A stretch of 64,000 nucleotides of DNA from a virus: IMG/VR virus record IMGVR_UViG_3300010883_000006, positions 42,992-106,991 of that record. The stretch is one strand, 5' to 3'. The notes beneath the pieces are model-generated. The model saw only the letters and a program-made list of their open reading frames with translations, was not told the DNA's origin and did not search any database. Shown in pieces: positions 30,701 through 61,715 of the stretch. A program made the position numbers and the translations under genes. Each line of letters begins with the position of its first letter. The first letter of the stretch is position 1.

Positions 30701-32868
30701 TTTTTACACCCAGCGAAAAAAGAATCAAGAATTTCATCCGTTTCTTTAGGTCCTAATTTTTGTAATTCTTTTCTAACAAGTAAGTTTAAAATACTGGGAT
30801 GGTCAACTACTATCTTAAATTTTAAATTACCACTTCTATCTGTGTGGTTATATGTGTATATTGGTTCTGGTCTACCAACAAACTGATTGGATGTCCAATT
30901 AGGTTGACTTGCTTCATCTACAGATAGGTCATAAGGGGGAAACCACATAATCCTACCACCATTTGGTCCTCTTTCACAAGCTGGTAAATCGTTATACGTT
31001 AACCCTTTTTGTGTGCTTGTTCTCCAAGCTAAATTTTCTAAAGAGAACATATATTTTTTAACTTTAGAATCGACTATATTAGTGGACCCTTTTCCACTTT
31101 CGTCTGTTCTCCAAGGAGCAATATTTAAATTATAAGGACTATCTAACACAGAATAAGTTTCAAATCTATGATTCATAGATTTTTTCTGTAGTTTACTATA
31201 ATTGTAGTAAGGGACATCTTTAGTCCATATTCTACAATATTCTCTAGGTTGTTCAATACCTTTAGAATCTACTGGGTCAGAATTAACAAATCTTCTAATT
31301 CTAGAACCTTTAGTTAATTCTTTATACCCATCATTAAACACCTTGCTTACTTGATTCATAGCATGGGAAACCGACTTAAGTCTAGCTCCACCTTTTGGGA
31401 TGGAATCTATAATTTGTTGGGTAACGTCCATTATGGAATCCTCTCTAAAGTCATAATTTGTAGACCTTGTATTATCGTAACCACTTGGTGTATCATAAGT
31501 AGGGGTGTCATCTGTTGACCCTTCAAACCCTTGTGTTGTACCAGGTACTTGTGGCCCTGGTGGTTTATCCCCAAACCCTAAGAAATTACCTACTTGTTGT
31601 AAGAAACCACCTTTAGGGGTATCTTCAGTGTACCAAGTAAATCCTCCAGGTACATTTCCTTGGTTGGCATAGGCTAATCCTTTCATACCAAAATTATAAT
31701 CGTTAGAATCAAATTCTTTGGCTACAACATCTGGTCCATATATAGGTACGTAATTTTTACCAGCGTATGTGTTATTTGGTGGACTAACCATGTCAGCTAT
31801 TCTATTCCTTGGGCCACCAACATATTCCGGCATGTTTGGTGGTTGATTCCCAAACCCAAGTATTCCACCACCAATAAAATCAATCGCTTCACCTATTGCT
31901 GCTCCCACCGCTGTTTGTGCTTGTGCTCCTTCACCATAATTTGGACCATATTTGTTGTATCTAATATGTTTAAACAATGATGATTTTGTTCCACCAGCAG
32001 TGTATTCTAAAAATCTTTGTGACGCGGATTGTCTTCTACGTGGTATACCAACTAAACTACCTAATATTCCTGTTATATCAGAAACTATTTTACCCGCGGT
32101 AGACAATCCACGAGCTGGTTCTAATTCAAAATAATCACCAGGAATATAAGAAAATGGTATATAAACACCAGTTAGTCTAGATACAAAATCTAGTCCTTTA
32201 CCAATTAATCCTTTTGGTACTGTTATTGTGTTGTCTCTTTCTATTAGAGATTCTCTACCAGTAACAATATCTAAAGCCATAAATGGGTCTTTCATAGCAT
32301 CAACAAAATTAAGTCTTCCTACTGTCTCTTGGTATAGTTCAAAAGCAATCCTAGTTTCAAACTCTTTTCTAAGTTGTTGTGCACCATATTGTTGTAGTAA
32401 ACTATCATCTAAAACCTTACCAGACAGTAAACCGGATGAATCTACACTACTTAATATTTGTAATGGAGAATAATATTGGGCAACAGTCATAAATGGATTA
32501 GCTCCAAATAGACCAGCTCCAGTTTCAGGTGGTGAAAATGATGGGTAATACCCTTCGTTTACTCTTGCTATATTTTGAGAGGCTGTATATATTTGTACCC
32601 AATTTTGGTATCCACCTGGGGGACCGTAAATATTTGCTAGATAGGATTTGTCAATAAAAAATTCACCAGCTAAGTCTACGGATGGTTGGTCAACAACCGA
32701 CATATCTCTAGTACCTTCCAAGAAATAAGTACCAGGTGTTACAGAAGATATTATACCAGCAGAACCCGCTGGGTCTTCTAGATTTTTAACCATCATTTGT
32801 TGTCTTAGGTATTCTGTTCCGTTAAAACTAAGTAAATTTAGTGGTGTATTTTGTGGTATTATTGCCAT
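27781..32868 (-). CDS. Giant tail/baseplate protein with internal OmpA-like domain
   Basis: This 1695-residue protein lies between the tape measure and gp53-like genes, so a tail-tube/baseplate role is inferred. Around residues 840-970 it has an OmpA/MotB-like pattern: VILNMEGSASS, then NNNLSKRRLNSVEKMFKAYL, then GES and a closing strand AVRITGVEIL. OmpA-C domains bind peptidoglycan. A Pro/Lys/Arg-rich linker (PEPPKPPKPPRRVERP) follows directly. The C-terminal 700 residues are beta-rich and include a Gln-rich run (QQQQQ). No membrane segment. Family of the remainder not recognised. Confidence 0.8.
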   Translation of the reverse strand: MAIIPQNTPLNLLSFNGTEYLRQQMMVKNLEDPAGSAGIISSVTPGTYFLEGTRDMSVVDQPSVDLAGEFFIDKSYLANIYGPPGGYQNWVQIYTASQNIARVNEGYYPSFSPPETGAGLFGANPFMTVAQYYSPLQILSSVDSSGLLSGKVLDDSLLQQYGAQQLRKEFETRIAFELYQETVGRLNFVDAMKDPFMALDIVTGRESLIERDNTITVPKGLIGKGLDFVSRLTGVYIPFSYIPGDYFELEPARGLSTAGKIVSDITGILGSLVGIPRRRQSASQRFLEYTAGGTKSSLFKHIRYNKYGPNYGEGAQAQTAVGAAIGEAIDFIGGGILGFGNQPPNMPEYVGGPRNRIADMVSPPNNTYAGKNYVPIYGPDVVAKEFDSNDYNFGMKGLAYANQGNVPGGFTWYTEDTPKGGFLQQVGNFLGFGDKPPGPQVPGTTQGFEGSTDDTPTYDTPSGYDNTRSTNYDFREDSIMDVTQQIIDSIPKGGARLKSVSHAMNQVSKVFNDGYKELTKGSRIRRFVNSDPVDSKGIEQPREYCRIWTKDVPYYNYSKLQKKSMNHRFETYSVLDSPYNLNIAPWRTDESGKGSTNIVDSKVKKYMFSLENLAWRTSTQKGLTYNDLPACERGPNGGRIMWFPPYDLSVDEASQPNWTSNQFVGRPEPIYTYNHTDRSGNLKFKIVVDHPSILNLLVRKELQKLGPKETDEILDSFFAGCKKYDIYDLARKWQQFSVNELTQIQEMLNTPGMDNDSIQELLVETNDGEPGTIVPTTDIPDLQSFIQPPLSFFFDNDYPDPNTTQTTSSVSYVECAAGSESKFGGYLATDNSVTEHVNRAPNEESKSALQNFFDDSDGAKNQWLTRWPAFAKALKEVLDTGLYTVILNMEGSASSIASASYNNNLSKRRLNSVEKMFKAYLLDGGLAFKSYMDNGRLQFPGPQALGESFCNTAETGPNSVYTAGAADCRAVRITGVEILKDPEPPKPPKPPRRVERPTPPEEKIKQQRQKNTRREIANKVLMKMVTECDYFDLLQEENEFIFDTLKEKFKFFHPAFHSMTPEGLNSRLTFLNQCVRPGATIPTKTGDGILSTEDAARNTAFGAPPICVLRVGDFYHTKIAIQQLSITYDDNLFDLNPEGIGVQPMIASVNITFNYIGGQGLKEPVNRLQNALSFNYYANTEMFDDRAFLTVTDDDIDEQAWLAANQDLIGQTQGSGAGNPEDDAAIIEELDTSENDGLTIGDRDNPTVSASGESGNIIYKTTFNDFNSSAYEYMTFTTNQVEKIMSNYGNGWVQLLYTEKDWANGEYYKTTGVGTYTTIPANFVGIPLDPQAKLNTFFDSFIKDIDNDLTYIQQQQQTTGPSNKQKRRLRNFLKEKAEEVQGEMADVLVSTESGMRNKALDYIHNVNRMNAIGRGCDGYITDGKTTVFSLSGSSGDVHSSSSPPNQPTQAANTLIELGLDYEYLTNVMTYYSAVFNGDISVSCYEQGGLCTSSTSSLSTPFTLTKPGRMVAFSSGTVLPFVSQIEIAPTQSNRLSADASSVFAFSHVAIDKSITDSVMTTNLQYFKQNYKPYINNNGSLWDGIREALEIGSSDPTWLEETIKSFGDCISINEDYFLGNMVTAKQQVSQRFAPEGQSNIVEGLPVNGDATTICDVKTDKERKLSYVKVEDASYEEIIRRVNTLENETNTTFNLKFK

Positions 32869-36663: not shown

Positions 36664-37314
36664 TTAATATAAAGCATGCTTTATAAAAAGCTTGCTATTT
36701 AATTCTTTAGGCAATCTAGCTTTAAGCTTCCTCATTTCTTTAATGTTCTTTATATCGTCATCTATAAACAATATTTCATTATAGACGTGTAACAAGGATT
36801 CCATCACCTCCGCTTTTTTCTCGTAGTCAGTAACCCCTTTTAACCCCTTTACTCTTTTAGAGTCATTTATAGCGTATACGTTTTCTCTAGTCAATTTATC
36901 ACCAATAGGTATTAACTCACCTTCTTTATTTTTATACATCAACCAATCTTTTAACCCTTTAAATACTACATCCTCTGAAGACCTTGCTGTTAATATTCCT
37001 AACTGGTAACCCCTAGATAACAAGTCATCCATAATCTCTAGATTAGATACTATAGGTTCTGCTTGGGATATTGACCTTTTTATTTTTATCGGGTCTAAAA
37101 AGTCTCTATAGTCGTAATAGTTCTTATTTTCCTCTGTAACATCTTCATGAGCATAGTCTGATGGTGTTAATTTAACTTCACTACTATCTGTAGGTAAATT
37201 TCTATATATGTAAATTTGTGAGGGTTTTAAAATAGTATCGTCAACATCTAATAATATTAATCTATTTTGATTAACACTTTCACTAATAATATTTTTTTTA
37301 ACTATGTAAGGCAT
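36664..37314 (-). CDS. HAD-family phosphatase with possible N-terminal leader
   Basis: This 216-residue HAD-fold enzyme has LILLDVDDTIL with nucleophile D23 and D25, TARSSEDV as motif II near residue 113, and ILFIDDDIKNIKEM as motif IV near 178. The substrate cannot be read from the sequence; nucleotide or polynucleotide 3'-phosphates (as in T4 PNK phosphatase) or a sugar phosphate fit the context. The first residues MPYIVKKNIISE resemble the leader seen on neighbouring enzymes. It is third in an operon with DeoC and the deoxyribosyltransferase-like gene, 3 nt after the latter. Confidence 0.82.
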   Translation of the reverse strand: MPYIVKKNIISESVNQNRLILLDVDDTILKPSQIYIYRNLPTDSSEVKLTPSDYAHEDVTEENKNYYDYRDFLDPIKIKRSISQAEPIVSNLEIMDDLLSRGYQLGILTARSSEDVVFKGLKDWLMYKNKEGELIPIGDKLTRENVYAINDSKRVKGLKGVTDYEKKAEVMESLLHVYNEILFIDDDIKNIKEMRKLKARLPKELNSKLFIKHALY

Positions 37315-37317
37315 GTT

Positions 37318-38202
37318 TTATTTAAAATTAGATAGAAATGGGTATAACTCATCTTCTTGTAGTATCTTAGTTATAGAAGGCATCATCCACGGAGATATGT
37401 TAGATATTTTCATTCCATTAGTTAACCAGATAAAAACTTGTGAGTTTTTTAATGCACTTACTTGAGCCTCTCCGAAAGTACCAGCACCAGCAGTACCATC
37501 AAAATTAATTAGATTTGTATCACACACTTTTAACATATACAAATCTTGAACCACTATTTGGTCTCTAATTTTTTCTCTAAATACAGCAAATTCTTCATCG
37601 TTTAGTTGGTTAGATTTCCAGGCTTTAAATAACTTTTGGAACTCTTCGTCCTCATCTCTTACTGTTTCAGCTCTAAGAGGGTTTAATATAGCTGGTGTTT
37701 CTATCCCTTTAAAATCCATAGTACCGTTAGTTACCAAATCAAGTAACCTATCACCCTTAACCACATGTCCTTCTCCGAAAAAATCCTCTATTTGTGTTCT
37801 CCAAGACATAGCGTCTGTAGCAAAATCTATTCCACCACCTAAATACATTGCTCTGGGAGTAAAAATTCCATTCATGTCCTTAGGGTCAAGAACCTTTAAC
37901 ATTTTTATAGTATCTTCCATTTCTTTAGCACTAGCGTTAATTAAGTAATCGGATGCTTTATCGGTTAAGTATCTTTTAAACCACTTACTTATTTGGTTAA
38001 ATACATTTCCAGAAGATTTTAATTCTGGTATACCACCATATTCTATTTCTTCTAATTCCATAGATTGGTCTGAAGAAACTAACATTTCTAATTGATTTTG
38101 TAATTGACTTCTTAAATTGTATGGTAGTGAATAAATCTCATCGTATGTTGTAGTTTTATCTTCTTCATATTCCCTTAAAAGATTTTTAATTCTATTTCTC
38201 AT
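37318..38202 (-). CDS. Nucleoside 2-deoxyribosyltransferase-like protein
   Basis: This 294-residue protein has an N-terminal leader-like helix (MRNRIKNLLRE) and a helical region to about 110, then a deoxyribosyltransferase-type Rossmann-like domain: MYLGGGIDFATDAMSWR at 119-135, ILNPLR at 172-177, and DTNLINFDGTAGAGTFGEA at 228-246, with candidate nucleophile E245. Such enzymes cleave the bond between base and deoxyribose or swap bases. The N-terminal 110 residues are additional to the family. Its ATG shares one base with the stop of deoC, so the two are translationally coupled. Substrate is not established. Confidence 0.75.
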   Translation of the reverse strand: MRNRIKNLLREYEEDKTTTYDEIYSLPYNLRSQLQNQLEMLVSSDQSMELEEIEYGGIPELKSSGNVFNQISKWFKRYLTDKASDYLINASAKEMEDTIKMLKVLDPKDMNGIFTPRAMYLGGGIDFATDAMSWRTQIEDFFGEGHVVKGDRLLDLVTNGTMDFKGIETPAILNPLRAETVRDEDEEFQKLFKAWKSNQLNDEEFAVFREKIRDQIVVQDLYMLKVCDTNLINFDGTAGAGTFGEAQVSALKNSQVFIWLTNGMKISNISPWMMPSITKILQEDELYPFLSNFK

Positions 38203-39008
38203 TAGTATTCCGTATTATCTATTTTATTACCGACCATTATGTCTTTAGCTGCTGAAGTACCTAATCTAGTAGCTCCAGCATCAATCATTGCCCTGGCGTC
38301 ATCTTTACTATAAATACCACCAGATGCTTTAACTTGTAGTGGTCCTGAATTTGATTTCATAATACTTACGGCTTCTGGTGTCGCTCCTACTGGTCTACCA
38401 TCATCAGTTTTATAAAACCCGGTTGAGGTCTTAACAAAAACATTCTTGGCATTTTGTACACCCACAGTCTCTATTACTATTTTACTAATTAACCTTGTAA
38501 GTTCAGATATTTCCTCATTGTTTAAAGCTGCAGACTCTATAATCCATTTAACCACTTTTCCGTCTTCTACACCAATAGCTGTGCCTTCACTAACCTCTTT
38601 CATTACTGTATCTAGGTCACCACCCTTAAAAGCTTTATAATCCACAACAAAATCTAATTCATCCACACCATCCTCTATAGCTTTTATAGCTTCATCCATT
38701 TTTGTACCCTGTCCAGTATCACCATTAGGAAACCCTATAACGGTACCAACTAACACATTAGCCCCCTTACTATCTATGAACTCACGAGCTGATTTAACGT
38801 ACTCTGGTCTTAACATAACTAACTTCATGTTATGGTCTATCGCATCTTTAATTGTATTAAAAACTATATCGTCGGTTTCTTCCTCCCCTATACCTGCCTG
38901 TTCTGGGGTTTTTAAATAAGTAGAATCTAAGTAAGACGATAAATTATCCTCTTCTTGTTCCTTTATTACCATTAAAGACTTAATTCTTTTTATTTCTTCA
39001 TTTAACAT
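38202..39008 (-). CDS. deoC: Deoxyribose-phosphate aldolase
   Basis: This 268-residue enzyme cleaves 2-deoxyribose-5-phosphate to glyceraldehyde-3-phosphate and acetaldehyde. Schiff-base lysine K193 lies in FVKTSTGF, the second lysine K227 in VKASGGI (34 residues apart, the same as K167/K201 in E. coli) and the acidic residue D119 in ELDFVVD. GFPNGDT and GATRLGTSA are also family motifs, so it looks fully active. Compared with bacterial DeoC it has about 45 extra N-terminal residues that start MLNEEIKRIKSLMVIKE, a leader-like helix. It is the first gene of a three-gene operon and diverges from the superoxide dismutase gene, with a TATTTATAT motif 15 nt before its ATG. Confidence 0.93.
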   Translation of the reverse strand: MLNEEIKRIKSLMVIKEQEEDNLSSYLDSTYLKTPEQAGIGEEETDDIVFNTIKDAIDHNMKLVMLRPEYVKSAREFIDSKGANVLVGTVIGFPNGDTGQGTKMDEAIKAIEDGVDELDFVVDYKAFKGGDLDTVMKEVSEGTAIGVEDGKVVKWIIESAALNNEEISELTRLISKIVIETVGVQNAKNVFVKTSTGFYKTDDGRPVGATPEAVSIMKSNSGPLQVKASGGIYSKDDARAMIDAGATRLGTSAAKDIMVGNKIDNTEY

Positions 39009-39023
39009 GTGGTTCTTGTTTGT

Positions 39024-39032
39024 ATATAAATA
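39024..39032 (-). promoter_or_regulatory. Candidate promoter element TATTTATAT for the deoC operon
   Basis: Lies in the 56-nt divergent gap between deoC and sod, 15 nt before the deoC ATG, directly abutting an oppositely oriented copy for sod. Confidence 0.4.
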
Positions 39033-39041
39033 TATTTATAA
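39033..39041 (+). promoter_or_regulatory. Candidate promoter element TATTTATAA for sod
   Basis: Plus-strand copy of the recurrent motif, 23 nt before the sod ATG; back-to-back with the deoC element, so one short gap may drive both operons. Confidence 0.4.
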
Positions 39042-39064
39042 TATATAAAATGTCATAGGAAACA

Positions 39065-39718
39065 ATGAGAGAGTTAATTAAAAAAATATTAAAGGAGGGG
39101 TTTTTGTCTGAGGCAAAAAAAACATTCTTCAAACGGGTCACTTTACCATATGATTATAATTCAGTTAAGGGTTTTGTTGGGTATGAGACAATGTGGGAAC
39201 ACTACAATAAACACTATAAAGGTTACACCACCAAGTTAAACGAAGCTTTATCTAAAAGAAAAAACCCAAATACTGACATAGAAAAGATAATTAGGGGAAT
39301 TAAAAACTACGATACATTTACAAGAAATAACGCTGGTGGGTATTATAACCATAGTTTATTTTTTAGAGATTACATAACACCTAAAAAAACAGAACTATCA
39401 AAAGAACTAAAAACTAAAATAAATAAGGACTTTGGTTCATTGGATAATTTTAAAAGACAGTTTGACGAAGAGTCAACAAAAGTATTTGGTTCTGGTTGGT
39501 GCTGGTTGGTGATTAAAAATGGGAGACTAAAAATTGTTAGTACCCCAAACCAAGATAACCCACTAATGGATAATATGGGTGAGCCTTTATTAGGTTTAGA
39601 TGTTTGGGAACATGCATACTACTTAAACTACATGTCCGATAGAAAAAAATATATAAAGAACTTTTGGGGTGTGGTTAATTGGGCTAAGGTATCTAAAAAA
39701 TATGTAGAACTAAAATAA
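39065..39718 (+). CDS. sod: Mn/Fe superoxide dismutase with N-terminal leader
   Basis: This 217-residue enzyme converts superoxide to peroxide and oxygen. All four metal ligands are seen: H46 (MWEHYNKHY), H96 (NNAGGYYNHSLFF), D179 and H183 (DVWEHAYY). NNAGG and the Gln in STPNQDNP (Q163) are of the Mn-SOD type, so Mn or cambialistic use is likelier than Fe. Typical SOD starts near residue 22 here; the first 16 residues MRELIKKILKEGFLSE are extra and nearly identical to the start of the kinase at 40451. No secretion signal is present. Phage-borne SOD is rare. AGGA lies 5 nt before the ATG (TCATAGGAAACA). Confidence 0.93.
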   Translation: MRELIKKILKEGFLSEAKKTFFKRVTLPYDYNSVKGFVGYETMWEHYNKHYKGYTTKLNEALSKRKNPNTDIEKIIRGIKNYDTFTRNNAGGYYNHSLFFRDYITPKKTELSKELKTKINKDFGSLDNFKRQFDEESTKVFGSGWCWLVIKNGRLKIVSTPNQDNPLMDNMGEPLLGLDVWEHAYYLNYMSDRKKYIKNFWGVVNWAKVSKKYVELK

Positions 39719-39749
39719 AATAAATAAACTAAAATCTATATTTATTAGT

Positions 39750-40451
39750 ATGAAGATAAGACTCACGGAATCACAAGTAAAAAAATTGATGATGTTCCAA
39801 CCAGGTAATGAAATTAACTTGGACGAAAAGAAAAAGGATGATAGGTGTACTAGAATAGCTAAACAAAAATACGATGTTTGGCCATCAGCTTATGCTTCTG
39901 GGGCAGTGGTTAGATGTAGAGCTGGTAAGATTTGGAAAAAGTTAAAAGAGGAAGATGTTTTAGAAAAAACCGATTTCACAAAAGAAAAGGATAAAGGGTT
40001 ACACGGTTGGTTTGAACGACAAGGAGCACCTGGAAAGACTGGTGGGTGGGTTGACTGTAATACTTGTAATAACGGTAAGTGTAAACCTTGTGGTAGGGGT
40101 GAAGGTGAAAAAAGAAAGAAACCTAGGTGTAGACCCACTCCAGCTGCTTGTAAGGGGTTTAAAAATGAAAGTATTATAGAAGAAGCTGAATATAGGGGTA
40201 GAAAAGTAAAATTAAATAAACCCACAAGAGGAGATGTTAAAAAGTTCAAGGTGTATGTTAAGAACGAAAAAGGAAATGTGGTTAAAGTTAATTTTGGTCA
40301 CGGAGGAACTTCAGCTAAAAAGAAGGGTGAAAAAACCATGAGAATTAAAAAATCTAACCCAGCTAGAAGAAAATCGTTCAGAGCTAGACATAAATGTGAT
40401 ACCCCAGGTCCTAAATGGAAAGCAAGGTATTGGTCTTGTAGAGCTTGGTAG
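39750..40451 (+). CDS. Basic Cys-rich phage protein (two-domain, unknown function)
   Basis: This 233-residue, Lys/Arg-rich protein starts MKIRLTESQVKKLM, a leader-like amphipathic helix. Around residues 32-55 lies CTRIAKQKYDVWPSAYASGAVVRC; around 90-135 lies GLHGWFERQGAPGKTGGWVDCNTC followed by further Cys (CKPCGRG, CRPTPAAC). The C-terminal 70 residues (KVYVKNEKGNVVKVNFG, RARHKCDTPGPKWKARYWSCRAW) form a second module that I recall as widespread in large phages without a known role. Cys pairs could bind zinc and the charge suits nucleic-acid contact. Its TAG overlaps the kinase GTG. Confidence 0.78.
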   Translation: MKIRLTESQVKKLMMFQPGNEINLDEKKKDDRCTRIAKQKYDVWPSAYASGAVVRCRAGKIWKKLKEEDVLEKTDFTKEKDKGLHGWFERQGAPGKTGGWVDCNTCNNGKCKPCGRGEGEKRKKPRCRPTPAACKGFKNESIIEEAEYRGRKVKLNKPTRGDVKKFKVYVKNEKGNVVKVNFGHGGTSAKKKGEKTMRIKKSNPARRKSFRARHKCDTPGPKWKARYWSCRAW

Positions 40452-41104
40452 TGAGGGAATTAATTAAAAAAATACTAAGGGAAGAATTTCTGTCGGAGGA
40501 AAAGGTAATTGGGTTTGGACAACCAAATAATAACTTTGTTGTTATTGCTGGTGGACCAGGAGCTGGTAAAAGTTTTATAAGTGGTAACCTAATCAACCTA
40601 AATAATGTTAAGAATTTTAATGTTGACCAAGTAAGGGTTATGACAGCAAAAAAATTATGGGGTGACGAGTGGGAAGAAAAAATATCCACACCAGAAGGGT
40701 ATCAACAAATACTAGATATGACGTACACCACCTCAAACCCAAAAAACCTAACAGTAAAATTTTTAAAACAATTTTTACAACATGAAAGAAACCAACAAGT
40801 TAATGTGGTATATGATGCTGGTGGTGGTCAAGAACAAGTAATGAAAGACATACATAACCTAGCTAAAGAAAATGGTTTTAATACTACACTAGTGTATGTA
40901 AGAACACCTTTAGAGTTAGCTCAACTTAGAAATGACGATAGACCTAGAAGTTTACCACCGGAAATGGTGGCACAATACCATGAACAAGTTAAAGATAATA
41001 TGAGGAATATGATTCCTGTATTTGACAATGTGTGGACAGTAGATAATAAAGAATTGATTAACTTATCAGATAGACCATCTGATAATATAGAAAAAATTAA
41101 ATAA
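40451..41104 (+). CDS. P-loop kinase, zeta-toxin-like, with N-terminal leader
   Basis: The start is GTG 40451, overlapping the upstream stop (TAGTG); a TTG six bases earlier is also in frame, but the GTG gives MRELIKKILREEFLSE, matching the SOD leader at 14 of 16 residues. The 217-residue product has Walker A GGPGAGKS at about residues 34-41, NVDQVR after strand 2, a DAGGG loop and TPLELAQLRNDDRPRSLPPEMV, the lid Arg-rich pattern of zeta-toxin/AAA_33 kinases. The substrate (nucleotide, sugar nucleotide or polynucleotide) is unknown. Its 3' end overlaps the convergent HAD gene by 8 nt. Confidence 0.82.
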   Translation: MRELIKKILREEFLSEEKVIGFGQPNNNFVVIAGGPGAGKSFISGNLINLNNVKNFNVDQVRVMTAKKLWGDEWEEKISTPEGYQQILDMTYTTSNPKNLTVKFLKQFLQHERNQQVNVVYDAGGGQEQVMKDIHNLAKENGFNTTLVYVRTPLELAQLRNDDRPRSLPPEMVAQYHEQVKDNMRNMIPVFDNVWTVDNKELINLSDRPSDNIEKIK

Positions 41105-41534
41105 CTTTATTTATTTTTAATTTAATTTTTGGGTATTTCATACAATAACTAATCACATCATCAATATGTTTATCCTTATCCTCCCAGTACTCTATTTCAG
41201 TAGTTTCAGGGTATTTTTTTATTAAACTCTCTACTCTTTTCCCTTTAGACCTATTACCATCTTTACCTACTATAAATAATTTTTCATTAAAATTAATGTT
41301 TTTAGTTTTTAATATGGACATAACCTCATCCTCAACACTACCTATTCTATTTGTTAAAAGAACAGTAATTACTTTTTTTTCATTAGACTCACTAAAGTAT
41401 TTTTTTAGTGTTTCTTTATTAAATGTAAAGTCCCATTTTTTTGGGTCTAGGCTGTCTTTAGTGTCAAGATAAGTGCTGTCTTCATAAGGGGTTTCGACTA
41501 AGGTATTGTCAAAATCGAACATAGATAATTTCAT
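41097..41534 (-). CDS. Small HAD-superfamily hydrolase
   Basis: This 145-residue protein has MFDFDNTLVETP (D7, D9), LLTNRIG as motif II near residue 60, and EYWEDKDKHIDD as motif IV near 114. The compact form with WEDKxxH resembles the HAD domain of Swiss-army-knife RNA repair proteins and T4-type PNK phosphatases, so nucleic-acid end processing is possible. A near-perfect Bacteroidota promoter (TTTG-N19-TATCTTTG) lies upstream, suggesting early, host-polymerase transcription, unlike the neighbouring leader-tagged enzymes. It has no leader peptide. Confidence 0.78.
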   Translation of the reverse strand: MKLSMFDFDNTLVETPYEDSTYLDTKDSLDPKKWDFTFNKETLKKYFSESNEKKVITVLLTNRIGSVEDEVMSILKTKNINFNEKLFIVGKDGNRSKGKRVESLIKKYPETTEIEYWEDKDKHIDDVISYCMKYPKIKLKINKVI

Positions 41535-41985: not shown

Positions 41986-42798
41986 TTAGTTCATGTTTAA
42001 GTCATCATCTAAATCCTCTAACTCCTCTGGTTCATCTAAATCTGGATAAGGTATTGGTTTAGCTATAGAATCGTAACTTCTTGGTCTTTTTTGTGATTGT
42101 CCAGACCCCATAAGTTCAGCAGTATAAGTCATAAAGTTACTTAATTTAACCAAAGTATTCTCTATTTGTTTTCTAGTCTTAGGGTCTTTAACAAACTCGT
42201 AACCTTTTTTAATGCTATTAATAATGTTTTCTAGGCCTGATGCAGCAGACTCACCTGGGTGATTTCTATTACTACCACTACCGTAGAACGATTCAGCTAT
42301 TATTTTAGAATTGTAATTTGATAATTTTAAACCACTTCCTTTTCTGGCTTTTATTGATTCTCTTATTACTTTGTAAGATTTATTTAATGATTTAACTAAA
42401 TTGTTTTTTTCTTCTAGGTACTTATCAACAACTTTTTCACCAGCTGTAGCTCCCATAGCTCCCGCAGCAATCTTTGCTAAATTAGCCCACATTTCATCTA
42501 AATCTTCTTCAGGTTCATCAACTTCATCTAATTCACTAGGTGATTCACTATCCATGTAATAATCGTCACCAGACTGAGTTACCATACCTTGAGCGTCTGA
42601 ATCCCCAATCGACAGGTCCCCATCACCAAAGTTCTCACCCATCTCGAACTCTTCGTAATCCATATAGTTTTCTAATAAATTATCAAACTGAGCTGGTGTT
42701 AATTTTATGTCACTAGGTTTTTTACCTGAATGTTCTCTTAATGATAGTCTTAACCCTAACCTATCTACTATTTCTGATTTTTTAATATTCCGTTCCAT
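41986..42798 (-). CDS. Acidic hypothetical protein downstream of the tail sheath
   Basis: This 270-residue protein has an acidic central part (about 45-105) and an acidic C-terminus (DLDEPEELEDLDDDLNMN), with a small Ala/Gly-rich helix (LAKIAAGAMGATAG) near 110. Helical stretches YKVIRESIKAR and NSKIIAESFYG resemble the leader-type or protease-site patterns found elsewhere in the window. It follows the sheath gene by 11 nt and ends at a terminator. Function unknown; a virion or assembly role is inferred. Confidence 0.7.
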   Translation of the reverse strand: MERNIKKSEIVDRLGLRLSLREHSGKKPSDIKLTPAQFDNLLENYMDYEEFEMGENFGDGDLSIGDSDAQGMVTQSGDDYYMDSESPSELDEVDEPEEDLDEMWANLAKIAAGAMGATAGEKVVDKYLEEKNNLVKSLNKSYKVIRESIKARKGSGLKLSNYNSKIIAESFYGSGSNRNHPGESAASGLENIINSIKKGYEFVKDPKTRKQIENTLVKLSNFMTYTAELMGSGQSQKRPRSYDSIAKPIPYPDLDEPEELEDLDDDLNMN

Positions 42799-42809
42799 TT
42801 TTAATTATT

Positions 42810-45800
42810 TTATATGTTCTCAAATGATGCTCCTGTTGGTGTAATCAAGAACTCCACACTAATAAACTCAAGAGAACGAGTTGGTTTTATGTAAATTTTA
42901 CCTTCTAACGTATTTTGGTCAATCAATTGAGGGTCATCAGAAACTACAACTCTAAAGTCAGTTAAACCCCTTTCTCTTCTAATAGAGTCCAATATTGGGT
43001 TAACTAAGTCTAAAAATTCATTTCTAACTTGTTCATCATTTTGTTCAAATACTAATTTTACAGACACTGAAGAAATAAGTTTTCTAGCTTGTAATAGTAA
43101 TCTTCTTACGTTAATTCTATCTAAAGCTGATTCTCTAGCTTGAAGTGTTTTGTTACCCCAAATAATCGTACCTACATCCGAGAACGTAGCGATTGGGTTA
43201 ATCCTACCAGCGTAAAGAGTGTCTCTTTCATCTAAAGTAAGTTTCTTTCTAGCTTTTACAGCGTTTACAATACCACGAGTATAACCTGCTGAAGCGAACC
43301 AAGGGAATGAAATGTTATCCGTTAGTGCGATATTTCTCATAACATCGTACGTTGGTGGTAACCAAATTCTAGTATTATTTTCAGTGTCGTTATGTAATAC
43401 CCAAGGGTAGTAAGTTGCTGTGTAGTTAGAGTCAATCCCTGTGTTATCTAAATTATCCACAGCCTCTGTAGGTTGTATGATGTTAGAAGGGTCACTAGGT
43501 GATGAAACAAACACATTAAAGTCAGGTGTTGTACACACATATAATGAATCGGCTCTTTCACCAACAACCATCTCAATACTTTCCTCAACTAAGTTACTAT
43601 TATTTACATAATCAATACCTGGTGTTGAGAATACGTTAATATTAACAGCTTCTGGATTTCTAAATGTTCTTATACCAAATAGGTAAGCGTAATAGTCAGT
43701 AGTTGCAAAATAACCAGCTTCACCCCAAGGTGTTTTTGTAAGGAACTTAAACGAACCATCACCAGTTGCTCCTGGGAATTGTGTTGTACTACAAGCCCCA
43801 TTTAAGAACCCTGATTTTCCTCTAATGTAACTGTCACCATTAGTTCTAAACTTTCTATAAATGTCCCAACCATCAAAACCACCATAAGGCATGAATGTGA
43901 ACTTTCTAGATTGTAGTTTATAATACGGACTACCAATATTTGTAGGTTCTTGTGTGAAAGGTGCGTCACCTACAGCGAACTGGTCTGTCGTTGCTGAAGA
44001 AGCCGTTGACCCGTATGGACAACCACATAGGATGTGTGCACATAATTCACTGTGTTGTGAACAAGTTGCTCCACTATCTAAGTGGAATCCTTGTGTTAAA
44101 CAAGCCCAATCATCTCCACTTGAGTCGTTACAAGCGTTAGTTGGTGCTTGTTTTCCTTTGTATTGGAAAAAGTCATCGTCATACGCTCCAGGTGCTACAT
44201 CTGAAATACCTAAATAAGTTGTTCTTATTTTATCACCAGAACTTAAACTTCTATTAGTTAAACCAGCAGTAGTTCCAAATGGTGGGTCATAAATGACATC
44301 ACCAGGTGCGTCGTATTTGGTTTTATAGTATAGTGTAGGACTTCTCATAGAATCATAAGACCTACTAATATACCCTTCAAAACCACAAGGAACCGCATCC
44401 CATAGGTTATTATCCATTTCTAACTCTGGGTCCATATCTAACATGATGTACCTACTCTTCAATTCGTAATCACCATTAACAGTACCAATCTTTTGACCTA
44501 CGTAACTGTTAAGTGATGGGTTCATACTACATCTAGTGTATTTTTCTAACACTGTAGGTGAAGAATCTGTATCGTAGTAACTTCTAACTATTAAATCAAA
44601 TTCAGCTCTTTCTAGACTTATATTAATAATTGAAATTTTAATAGCTGTATTTGCTGCGTTTCCATCAGCTACCGAAACAGCTCTAAATAATTTATAAACT
44701 TTACTACCTCTTAATTCCGAAACAACATAAGGTGTTACCGGTGTTTGCCATTGTTCTTGGTAAAAACCAATAGTGTTTGTGTTGTTAGCGTTTCTAAATT
44801 CAGGTAAATTTAATAATGTACATTGTAATCCTCTTACATAACCTTTTTTGTATGCGTGAGTCAACATATTTGGGTATGATTCCTCAACAAAAATAGGTAC
44901 CTCTAACATGTCTTTATCAAAAGGTTGAACACCAAATACTTTCTTAAGGAATTTTTTGTCAGTTGGTGCCATATTAGTATCAAACCTAAACCCTCTATTT
45001 TCTCTATCTGTTACATCTATTGCAAATGTTGAGAATGGGTTAGTTAATACGTCGTCATAAGTACTTCCAGTACAAACAAAAGTAACATTTGTAGTTCCAG
45101 TAACTCTATATTCTGGACCACCAGAACCTAATGTACTAACACCCCTAGACCTAAACGTCGCTACTACTTGATTATCAAAATCACAATAAGTAGCTGCACT
45201 CCAGTAGGTGAATGTCATTGAAGTACTTCCAGTGTAAAGGTTGGTTGCACTTACTGTACTAGCATCTTGTACCGCTCCATTAGCTAAATCCACACCAATG
45301 GTCATTGATACACCAGTATATGCCCCATCTACATAATCAAAGAACGTATATTCCCAACTATCATTTTGGTTTGTATTACTACCAGCGTCACAGAAAGGTG
45401 AGTCAGCGTAACCATTTGGATTGTATTGTGAATTTAATCTATTAGATGTAACACCAGAAAACGCTGCCCAAAAAGTATCATCTATAAAACCACCAGATGA
45501 ATTTATTACAGGTGCAGGCCAAGTATTACCCGAAGACGGATTACCAACATCAAAGTTACTCACACCATATTGATAAGCTAGTGAGGTACCAGTTAAATTA
45601 GTAAGACATGGTGTTGTTCCAGTAGCACATGTTGCACTTGGGTGTGAAAAGTTATTATATAGTGCGTAAAAGAAAGAATTTAAATCTTGACGTAGTGTAG
45701 TTGTTGAACCATCGTATTTTGTTATTAATTCATCTATTGTTGGTACAATTACTGATGGTAAGTGAGTAGAGTACCAATCGTTACCCAGTGGTTGCATTGA

Positions 45801-46442
45801 CCCATTAGCGAAAGTAGTTAATGGACCGGAAGTTATTGATGTTCCAGACCAATAAGTTGGTACATTAGTTACCAAATAAGAAACTGGAGTTTTACCACTT
45901 GCTCCATAACAAGAAGTTTGTCCAGAACCTTTGTAGTAATAACCTTGTTGGTCTACAATATCATATTGTGTATCACCTGTTTGGTAATATCCTTGACCTG
46001 GGAAAACCCTTGTCTCTCCAGATAGTGTTGAGAAACCTGGTACGTACGCATTATTCCATGAGGTACATTGTGATTGTATTGTATCACAATTTACATTACC
46101 CCTAGTCAATATAGACCACGAAGGCCCAGCATCAAAACCAGAATAACCAAGTACCCTAGTAACAAATAGTTGATTTGATTGTTGTAAATATGCTTTCGCA
46201 ATATATGATAGTTCATATTTTGGTATTTGTGTTTCAACGTACTTTTCAGTACTAGTAGTACCGAAGTAAGTTTGAAACTCACCATATGAACTTATTAAAA
46301 TAGGTTCAAACGCTGGACCTTGTAAAGTCTCACCCGCTAAACCTAATGTTGTAACACCTACACTTTGTGCTACGAAACTTAAATCTTTCTCCGACGTGTA
46401 AACACCCGGAGAAACAAATACTTTGTTAGAATTACTCGCCAT
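42810..46442 (-). CDS. 18: Tail sheath protein, gp18-like, with very large insertion
   Basis: The N-terminus (VFVSPGVYTSEKDLSFVAQSVGVTTLGLAGETLQGPAF) and C-terminus (AGRINPIATFSDVGTIIWGNKTLQ, INVRRLLLQARKLISSVSVKLVFEQND, then KIYIKPTRSLEFISVEFLITPTG) are typical of T4 gp18. The protein is 1210 residues against 659 in T4. The extra sequence lies between about residues 100 and 850 and is Thr/Ser/Gly/Asn-rich with several Cys (CATGTTPC, CSQHSELCAHILCGCPYG), like a surface-exposed decoration. The sheath contracts to drive the tube into the cell. A TATTTATTT element lies about 40 nt upstream. Confidence 0.92.
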   Translation of the reverse strand: MASNSNKVFVSPGVYTSEKDLSFVAQSVGVTTLGLAGETLQGPAFEPILISSYGEFQTYFGTTSTEKYVETQIPKYELSYIAKAYLQQSNQLFVTRVLGYSGFDAGPSWSILTRGNVNCDTIQSQCTSWNNAYVPGFSTLSGETRVFPGQGYYQTGDTQYDIVDQQGYYYKGSGQTSCYGASGKTPVSYLVTNVPTYWSGTSITSGPLTTFANGSMQPLGNDWYSTHLPSVIVPTIDELITKYDGSTTTLRQDLNSFFYALYNNFSHPSATCATGTTPCLTNLTGTSLAYQYGVSNFDVGNPSSGNTWPAPVINSSGGFIDDTFWAAFSGVTSNRLNSQYNPNGYADSPFCDAGSNTNQNDSWEYTFFDYVDGAYTGVSMTIGVDLANGAVQDASTVSATNLYTGSTSMTFTYWSAATYCDFDNQVVATFRSRGVSTLGSGGPEYRVTGTTNVTFVCTGSTYDDVLTNPFSTFAIDVTDRENRGFRFDTNMAPTDKKFLKKVFGVQPFDKDMLEVPIFVEESYPNMLTHAYKKGYVRGLQCTLLNLPEFRNANNTNTIGFYQEQWQTPVTPYVVSELRGSKVYKLFRAVSVADGNAANTAIKISIINISLERAEFDLIVRSYYDTDSSPTVLEKYTRCSMNPSLNSYVGQKIGTVNGDYELKSRYIMLDMDPELEMDNNLWDAVPCGFEGYISRSYDSMRSPTLYYKTKYDAPGDVIYDPPFGTTAGLTNRSLSSGDKIRTTYLGISDVAPGAYDDDFFQYKGKQAPTNACNDSSGDDWACLTQGFHLDSGATCSQHSELCAHILCGCPYGSTASSATTDQFAVGDAPFTQEPTNIGSPYYKLQSRKFTFMPYGGFDGWDIYRKFRTNGDSYIRGKSGFLNGACSTTQFPGATGDGSFKFLTKTPWGEAGYFATTDYYAYLFGIRTFRNPEAVNINVFSTPGIDYVNNSNLVEESIEMVVGERADSLYVCTTPDFNVFVSSPSDPSNIIQPTEAVDNLDNTGIDSNYTATYYPWVLHNDTENNTRIWLPPTYDVMRNIALTDNISFPWFASAGYTRGIVNAVKARKKLTLDERDTLYAGRINPIATFSDVGTIIWGNKTLQARESALDRINVRRLLLQARKLISSVSVKLVFEQNDEQVRNEFLDLVNPILDSIRRERGLTDFRVVVSDDPQLIDQNTLEGKIYIKPTRSLEFISVEFLITPTGASFENI

Positions 46443-61346: not shown

Positions 61347-61715
61347 GTGAAATTAAATGATACTTTAAAAACGTTATTATTGGAGGTCGCTAACAGAGAC
61401 GACGCCTGCAAAAGTGTCAAAGGTAGATTTGTAACTAGTATTTATTATCAAGGTGACACTACTCTAGACCCAGGTTGGCGAACTATCGAACCAGTTGCTG
61501 CTGGTACTACTAAAAGAAATAACCCTGTTTTACGTGCATGGCAAAGAGAAGGTGCCTCAGACACCCCACAAAGAATTCCTGGGTGGAGATTTTTTAGATT
61601 AGATAGAATAACAAATTTTGACCAAACACTAGATACTTTCGATGATGTTAGACCTAACTTTAATCCGAATGGCGATAAAAGCATGAACCAAGTATGGTGT
61701 ATAGCAAAATTTTAA
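61347..61715 (+). CDS. WYL-like domain protein with leader-type N-terminus
   Basis: GTG 61347 starts a 122-residue protein, MKLNDTLKTLLLE followed by VANRDDACKS. The body matches the WYL-type SH3 fold: RTIEPVAAG, NNPVLRAWQREG, WRFFRLDRITNF. WYL domains sense ligands or nucleic acids in bacterial regulators and defence systems; here the domain stands alone without a helix-turn-helix. The first 13 residues look like the leader on the phage enzymes. It is in a late-type cluster, so delivery with the virion is possible. Ligand unknown. Confidence 0.7.
   Translation: MKLNDTLKTLLLEVANRDDACKSVKGRFVTSIYYQGDTTLDPGWRTIEPVAAGTTKRNNPVLRAWQREGASDTPQRIPGWRFFRLDRITNFDQTLDTFDDVRPNFNPNGDKSMNQVWCIAKF

Follow-up and report, generated by a model that had tools for sequence, protein, structure and literature searches.

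Predicted capsid-targeting leaders with a conserved hydrophobic-x-Glu end on enzymes of a T4-type phage

Why should mutually unrelated enzymes of one phage begin with short extra peptides that all end in the same way? The question was raised by 64,000 nucleotides of virus DNA (here called the window; positions 42,992 to 106,991 of the IMG/VR virus record IMGVR_UViG_3300010883_000006, which has 106,991 bases), in which such leaders were found on a superoxide dismutase (SOD), a P-loop kinase and five other proteins. The initial annotation had regarded them as capsid-targeting sequences that are cut by the prohead protease gp21. Computational analysis led us to the same view. With a probability of about 0.8, the leaders are divergent capsid-targeting propeptides of a T4-type head, belonging to sequence families unlike those of T4. 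Packaging with cleavage was considered just as probable, and ejection followed by activity in the next host, argued by analogy, was favored less firmly. Capsid targeting and gp21 cleavage were strongly supported by sequence comparison and by virion proteomics already published for two T4-like cyanophages, which was set against the genes of these phages.

Leaders of the window proteins and their glutamate

The leaders of the seven proteins were 11 to 26 residues long, and each had Glu as its last residue and a hydrophobic residue two positions before it. All of the N-termini quoted in the initial annotation were present in the window, and the hydrophobic-x-Glu end that it had given to most of them was found in seven of seven, including the leader of the Cys-rich protein (LxE at residue 26). 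The idea of a common leader on unrelated enzymes held for the SOD and the kinase, whereas the other five proteins had different leaders. The description of the leaders as basic and amphipathic was not supported. Their net charge was 0 to +3, and the helical moment exceeded that of shuffles at p<0.05 in none of the seven.

The Fe/Mn SOD (39065..39718, plus strand; Pfam Sod_Fe_C 8.9e-41, Sod_Fe_N 2.9e-14) began with the leader MRELIKKILKEGFLSE (39065..39112, plus strand). The predicted cut was after Glu16 (FLSE|AKKTFF), and the protein downstream of it reads AKKTFFKR. In the AF2 model, pLDDT stayed below 50 for residues 1-25, where a low-confidence helix was placed at 2-11, and the folded part began downstream. 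The window SOD was aligned with 9 of 15 relative loci (alignment A2, n=10; 47-89% identical to the window SOD). The loci L002, L006, L009, L011, L013 and L015, which were near-duplicates or cut off, were kept outside the alignment. The leaders of the ten SODs varied in length and class, and Glu16 was the one position between 2 and 26 at which all ten agreed. The site triplets were LSE, LVE, LTE, VTE, LTE, IAE, ILE, ILE, LLE and VLE, with L or I at P3 in eight and V in two. The same kind of site was found in all six unaligned loci. H46, H96, D179 and H183 were invariant in the aligned SODs and are candidate metal ligands, which we take to be their roles.

The kinase (AAA_33/zeta-toxin-like; 40451..41104, plus strand; Pfam AAA_33 2.1e-10) carried the leader (M)RELIKKILREEFLSE (40451..40498, plus strand), with a predicted cut after Glu16 and before EKV. 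This placement was based on the similarity to the SOD leader and on the orthologues, whose leaders ended in FLSE, LLLE and LMTE. The leader started at the GTG at 40451, not at the TTG at 40445. In the PDB search, the kinase gave weak L-seryl-tRNA(Sec) kinase matches alone (1e-5). In the leader codons of SOD and kinase, 42 of 54 bases were identical, and the likeness ended with the leader. The codons were compared by eye, and the 12 base differences consisted of 7 synonymous changes, 4 non-synonymous changes and 1 in the start codon. Synonymous differences thus outnumbered non-synonymous ones, which pointed to a conserved peptide and not to recent copying.

In the case of the DeoC-family aldolase (38202..39008, minus strand; Pfam 1.2e-07; PDB deoxyribose-phosphate aldolases 4.5e-24), the leader was MLNEEIKRIKSLMVIKE (38958..39008, minus strand) and the predicted cut was after Glu17 (VIKE|QEED). 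The orthologue leaders ended in IIRE, LIRE and LVNE. The conserved protein at 37318..38202 (minus strand) began with MRNRIKNLLRE (38170..38202, minus strand), predicted to be cut after Glu11. R10-E11 was invariant in the five aligned sequences, and the end was ILKE in the related virus G003. The HAD-type phosphatase/PNK-like protein (36664..37314, minus strand; DUF2608 3e-05; phrog_415 polynucleotide kinase 4.9e-08) had the leader MPYIVKKNIISE (37279..37314, minus strand) with a predicted cut after Glu12, and its orthologues showed IISE, TLSE, NLSE, VLNE and ILKE. A small protein (61347..61715, plus strand) carried MKLNDTLKTLLLE (61347..61385, plus strand), predicted to be cut after Glu13, and its orthologues had LILE in the related virus G002 and IILE in G003. 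The seventh leader, of the Cys-rich protein, is described below. Another protein of the same cluster served as an internal contrast. This HAD/Swiss-Army-Knife protein (41097..41534, minus strand; HAD_SAK_1 2e-09) had no leader and started with MKLSMFDFDNTL directly at the fold.

The identities of the predicted cargo were mixed. The label 'deoxyribosyltransferase-like' for the 37318 protein was not confirmed, with no significant Pfam or PDB match and an AF2 model of pLDDT 40, and the 'WYL-like' label of the 61347 protein fell below the cut-off (Pfam, E=0.017). The PDB search with the HAD protein yielded no enzyme identity. When orthologue pairs were scored loosely for an aligned [ILV]xE within the N-terminal 8-40 residues, 78 of 299 pairs were positive compared to 549 of 3305 internal windows. 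The excess was modest because every chance LxE counts in this test. Short-peptide tblastn searches with the leader gave no match, or just four records of the source phage.

Head genes, the gp23 site and the Cys-rich protein

The record G001 (136,768 bases) was the same virus, and positions 1-64000 of the window matched it at 99.98-100% identity. It contained the gp21 protease (105873-106661, minus strand; Pfam profile PF03420, 2.2e-27) and gp23 (102527-104389, minus strand; Pfam profile PF07068, 4e-63), head genes that were missing from the 106,991-base record. An acidic gp22-like gene, named by position alone, stood between them (104424-105773, minus strand). Judged by its gp23 and gp21 sequences, the virus is a T4-type myovirus. 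In T4, gp21 cuts after L/I-X-E. The propeptides that it removes have 7 to 65 residues, with 65 in gp23. For the packaging of IPIII its first ten residues are enough, and Asp in place of the Glu at the cut site is reported to inhibit the processing of this protein while targeting still occurs (PMC9026906).

A check of the leaders against the phage's own prohead protease sites had been proposed in the initial annotation, and the putative maturation site of gp23, HLINE|ATSADASG at E60, matched the leader ends. The gp23 of G002 and G003 was the same through the Ala-Thr after the site, and that of the Flavobacterium phage immuto, a cultured relative with gp21, had IVSE|A at E59. The T4 gp23 sequence reads FGSFLTE|AEIGG at E65, and the LINE|A of the window virus stood at the corresponding place. 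In the 42,411 residues of the remaining G001 reading frames, [IL]xE followed by Ala occurred just 23 times.

The Cys-rich basic protein (39750..40451, plus strand) consists of two parts, with a match to phrog_7595 at residues 144-233. Its leader MKIRLTESQVKKLMMFQPGNEINLDE (39750..39827, plus strand) reaches residue 26 and ends in NLDE|KKKDD, to be compared with ILSE|KKADRC in the immuto homologue KNV73_gp084; gp083 and gp087 of immuto are other leader-bearing proteins. A second cleavage site was predicted from homologue comparison at codons 143-145 (I-E-E of SIIEE; 40176..40184, plus strand), before AEYRGRKV at residue 146. The basic C-terminal domain was present in many phages. From 20 phage records 16 were used, and the other 4 were further records of immuto and HTVC008M. 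In 11 of 12 homologues from T4-like phages, which include two near-identical pairs, L/I-x-E|A/G-E-Y/F stood directly before the domain. Examples were SIIEE|AEYRGRKV in the window, PLEE|AEFQ in HTVC008M and ELTE|AEYQ in C48C1. The records of 8 of these 12 contained gp21, and the other 4 were fragments without a match.

The domain was also found in 13 other phages in which PF03420 was not found, while the same model matched HTVC008M in the same search. In 11 of these 13, the domain was bare. The start was M|A[KT]Y[QK]G in seven phages (Kolga, Aegir, CRP-901, CRP-902, HTVC111P, HTVC026P and HTVC202P), and its Met occupied the very position of the Glu. Four others (CRP-3, CRP-738, CRP-235 and HTVC106P) started with M-A-[IV]-D-K and were too divergent for residue-level placement.

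Two further arrangements of the Cys-rich protein were seen. In immuto, the two halves were separate genes, gp099 and gp084 (L051:21270-21827 and 31184-31654), which fits the idea that the window protein is cut into two. In the Roseobacter phage CRP-6 (L177:345-1034), the basic domain was fused to the N-terminus of a sequence that by eye resembled an HK97-type prohead protease. This fusion was a further hint that the basic domain belongs to the head interior.

Shared N-termini and virion enzymes of cyanophages

Pairs of N-termini were scored with BLOSUM after signal-peptide-like starts and short proteins had been removed, and internal segments and shuffled N-termini were used as controls. The per-virus tests kept 116 of 134, 196 of 234, 176 of 192 and 132 of 158 proteins of at least 100 residues. 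In the window virus, SOD and kinase formed the top pair among 6670, with a score of 64. The second-ranked pair scored 52 and consisted of epimerase-like starts as judged by eye. At scores of at least 40, 41 pairs were found in G003 (1 internal, 3 shuffled), 10 in immuto (0 internal, 1 shuffled) and 14 in G002 (4 internal, 4 shuffled). The pooled test covered the window virus, G002, G003 and immuto (five records, four viruses), kept 653 of 760 proteins of at least 90 residues and excluded pairs related downstream of residue 40. At scores of at least 46, it gave 104 N-terminal pairs compared to 2 internal and 1 shuffled. At scores of at least 44, the three largest families had 16, 11 and 10 proteins. 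These were the LTESxLxxLIxKV, EEKNRIRxLH and LIKKILKE classes, and the window SOD and kinase belonged to the LIKKILKE class. The pooled pairs included residual families that are not leaders, several small ones being tail, epimerase or glutaredoxin-like starts, and a few members of the large families, e.g., two MPRPKKK proteins, may not be leaders either. The loose pattern hxxhhxE was weak for the window virus alone, being marginal in record G000 (7/77, p=0.067), but clear in the relatives, with 31/263 in G002 (p=3e-5) and 29/182 in immuto (p=2e-7). A gapless EM motif search on the N-termini ended in an unspecific KKL pattern to which signal peptides contributed, and the pairwise test was used instead.

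The published virion contents of T4-like cyanophages were then read against the genes. In the case of S-CREM2, 52 proteins were detected in purified virions (PMC10665884). The motif scan covered 217 of 219 CDS and left out ORFs 85 and 130, both virion-detected, which cross locus borders. All four virion enzymes that were neither structural nor lytic had a T4-like motif near the N-terminus. Three of them were in the strict T4 register, namely the SAM hydrolase (MKDFDSFLEE), the APH/ChoK-like kinase (MKRFDAFLTE|E) and the cytidylyltransferase (MKNFSSFLTE|A). The Cas9-like nuclease had FASFMAE|A after a longer start, with the motif at residues 22-25. The strict pattern occurred in 8 of the 217 proteins: 5/27 detected non-structural, 0/23 detected structural and 3/167 undetected (p=0.0015 for detected non-structural vs undetected, p=0.017 for all detected vs undetected). 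With a looser pattern, the numbers were 6/27, 1/23 and 5/167, respectively. For S-SZBM1, 16 proteins were read. Its sole virion-detected enzyme, a cytidylyltransferase (PMC9146016), starts with MRFRQFIIE|A, and neither of the two detected hypothetical proteins read, 139 and 195, had the strict pattern. A kinase homologue of the Aeromonas phage AS-zj, which has gp21, starts with MKMKFSEFVQLEE, a T4-like leader. The leaders of the window and those of S-CREM2, S-SZBM1 and AS-zj had the cleavage half in common but not the register.

Alternatives, predicted mechanism and known systems

Several observations weighed against capsid targeting. The T4 register, M-x(4-6)-aromatic-hydrophobic-x-E, which was the pattern scanned in S-CREM2 and for which the IPIII sequence served as comparison, was fitted by none of the seven window leaders when they were read directly. 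The V at P3 in two SOD leaders and the M in the LMTE of one kinase leader fell outside strict L/I-x-E. In G002, the DeoC protein (L021:7190-8290, minus strand) kept the junction as TLKE|QEED at residue 121 instead of 17, so that the propeptide may be longer there or a domain may have been fused. In the twelfth Cys-rich homologue (L014), the LxE was one residue off. Among the phages without detectable gp21, CRP-2 had a short unrelated extension and CRP-6 had NLPLEE ahead of the domain. The excess of similar N-termini in the window virus taken alone was small, with 4 pairs vs 1 internal and 1 shuffled at scores of at least 40, 10 vs 12 and 5 at 35, and 46 vs 36 and 30 at 30. In S-CREM2, ORFs 30, 175 and 199 (L084, L085) had the strict pattern and were not virion-detected, being either low-abundance cargo or false positives. 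The majority of the virion-detected hypothetical proteins had no motif, and many of them lay among the tail genes. The S-CREM2 authors stated that co-purification of abundant proteins was possible (PMC10665884). Virion proteomics was not found for the window virus or its near relatives. Finally, enzymes of the size of SOD would have to unfold to pass the tail tube.

These points were considered together with other explanations of the leaders. They could be sorting or interaction tags for a place other than the head interior, such as a phage compartment, a membrane, the baseplate or a host complex, with the Glu as a binding motif and not a cut site. The halves without the Glu indeed fell into several classes (LIKKILKE, LTESxLxxLI, EEKNRIRxLH) unlike the T4 targeting sequence, and the M23/lysozyme protein of G002 described below could also act from the tail. 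However, a binding motif leaves three findings aside: the gp23 maturation site with the same hydrophobic-x-E|A end, the bare Cys-rich domain starting exactly at the site in seven phages without gp21, and the coincidence of S-CREM2 virion enzymes with T4-like starts. We considered sorting tags improbable. Packaging and cleavage could also be real and deliver nothing useful, the enzymes having a role in the assembly core or being leftovers. In favor of this, the T4 core proteins gp22, gp67 and gp68 (the last printed there as gp6) are fragmented by gp21 (PMC9026906). In our case, however, the predicted cuts left the folds whole, the SOD and DeoC cores were conserved and the SOD ligand positions were invariant. 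This explanation was given an even smaller chance than the tags.

Two more explanations were regarded as very improbable, to an equal degree. The 42 of 54 identical bases in SOD and kinase would suit a functionless spread of 5' ends by recombination or duplication, or chance similarity. This was opposed by the 7 synonymous against 4 non-synonymous differences, by the leaders changing while the Glu stays, and by the large pooled excess over shuffled and internal controls. The other explanation, also named in the initial annotation as a refuting case, was that the leaders are ordinary N-termini of bacterial ancestors. From 586 bacterial SOD loci 80 were kept, and 32 of them had N-terminal extensions of at least 13 residues before LPY, many signal-peptide-like. 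However, 31 loci had no room for a leader, and 17 were not anchorable. Among the 32 extended SODs, 30 lacked [ILV]xE near the place and 2 had it inside long extensions, and none of the extensions printed was phage-like. In the PDB, the best 60 of 161 SOD sequences aligned from query residue 20 or later. The leader was not found on the bacterial homologues examined.

If the leaders are capsid-targeting propeptides, the following course would be expected. Through the N-terminal half of its leader, each enzyme would dock into the core of the prohead once it is made. A gp21-type protease would then cut after the Glu of the hydrophobic-x-Glu end, a predicted cut at a site strongly supported by comparison, and two such cuts would be made in the Cys-rich basic protein. 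The mature enzyme would remain in the head with the DNA and would be ejected into the next cell, as judged from the T4 internal proteins and Alt. The likely use would be immediate protection and metabolic help before phage gene expression, for example the removal of superoxide and the chemistry of nucleotides or RNA ends.

A broader proposal was made tentatively, at slightly less than an even chance. In one lineage of large T4-like phages, whose hosts are perhaps Bacteroidota, capsid targeting may have grown into a general system for cargo, with some tens of proteins per genome, at least three leader codes, release by gp21 and a starter set of enzymes in each virion. The cargo would include SOD, DeoC-family aldolase, kinases, HAD phosphatases, a DHH-like protein and wall-degrading enzymes. 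In G002, 31 leader-like proteins were picked by eye. A Bacteroidota host was inferred because signal peptides that by eye were of a Bacteroidota kind stood on many proteins of the relatives, and because homologues of the Cys-rich protein occur in a cultured relative that infects Flavobacterium. Two loci of G002 were seen in this connection. One protein (L020:2878-4254, minus strand) had the leader-like IKVLSE|AVLG followed by M23 peptidase, peptidoglycan-binding and phage tail lysozyme domains, and its sequence suggested a possible head-carried wall-degrading enzyme. In the other locus (L022:12115-14160, minus strand), a DHH-like protein (ILLKE|SGIRN; DHH match below the cut-off) adjoined a lysozyme (LLVEE), and both had leader-like starts.

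The system resembled that of T4 IPI/IPII/IPIII and Alt, in which short N-terminal propeptides on mutually unrelated proteins are cut at L/I-X-E by an S77 protease. gp21 and gp23 were in the same virus as the leaders, the length of 11-26 residues was within about 7-65 (PMC9026906), the Glu site was conserved while the leader diverged, and the same leader stood on unrelated proteins. It differed in the targeting half, which falls into several families, and in the predicted cargo of SOD, DeoC-family aldolase, kinase and HAD proteins. Since the window leaders were outside the T4 register, they were classed as working like the T4 system and not as members of the T4 IP family. In S-CREM2 (SAM hydrolase, APH/ChoK-like kinase, cytidylyltransferase, Cas9-like nuclease) and S-SZBM1 (cytidylyltransferase), the enzymes were found in virions by mass spectrometry and had T4-like motifs at their gene starts, but the cargo was different from that of the window virus and the leaders were mostly in the T4 register. 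In SPN3US/phiKZ, the prohead protease (gp245/gp175) likewise removes N-terminal propeptides, cutting at a short motif with Glu as its last residue (PMC10052503, PMC9026906). In contrast to the window virus, protease and motif are diverged there and the propeptides mostly long, those given for SPN3US having 20, 24 and 111-254 residues (PMC10052503). The virion of the chlorovirus PBCV-1 also carries a superoxide dismutase (PMC7019647), but this is a eukaryotic virus with a Cu/Zn enzyme.

The principle is known from T4, and packaging of various proteins through capsid targeting in T4-like phages has already been suggested (PMC9026906). The new elements are leader families unlike those of T4, several in one genome, and predicted cargo such as SOD and DeoC-family aldolase. 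The link of targeting motifs to the published virion enzymes of cyanophages is also new, as it was not found in the literature searched. Neither the S-CREM2 nor the S-SZBM1 paper was among the papers found to use the phrase 'capsid targeting sequence'. In a search outside which lay most subscription papers and all preprints, no paper was found linking capsid targeting to metabolic enzymes of marine phages. If capsid targeting is correct, many 'hypothetical' or auxiliary metabolic genes of T4-like phages would be predicted virion cargo, recognizable from the first 10-30 residues, and part of the metabolic takeover would reach the cell ready-made, as protein, at time zero. The prediction is simple, can be falsified and applies to many proteins at once: the mature N-terminus should stand directly after hydrophobic-x-Glu. 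Separate targeting and cleavage halves and several leader classes would also help to understand how prohead cores choose their cargo.

Two neighboring genes of the window were observed in addition. The protein at 41986-42798 (minus strand) had an internal class-A-like leader, IKLTPAQFDNLLE|NYMDY. Its counterpart in G002 had VVTESQFERLME at the aligned place, and a G002/G003 pair aligned at VVTE/TITE. The gene beside it (42810-46442, minus strand) encodes a protein of 1210 residues with a start that by eye was tail-sheath-like. It was far longer than T4 gp18 (98536-100515) and may contain large inserted domains.

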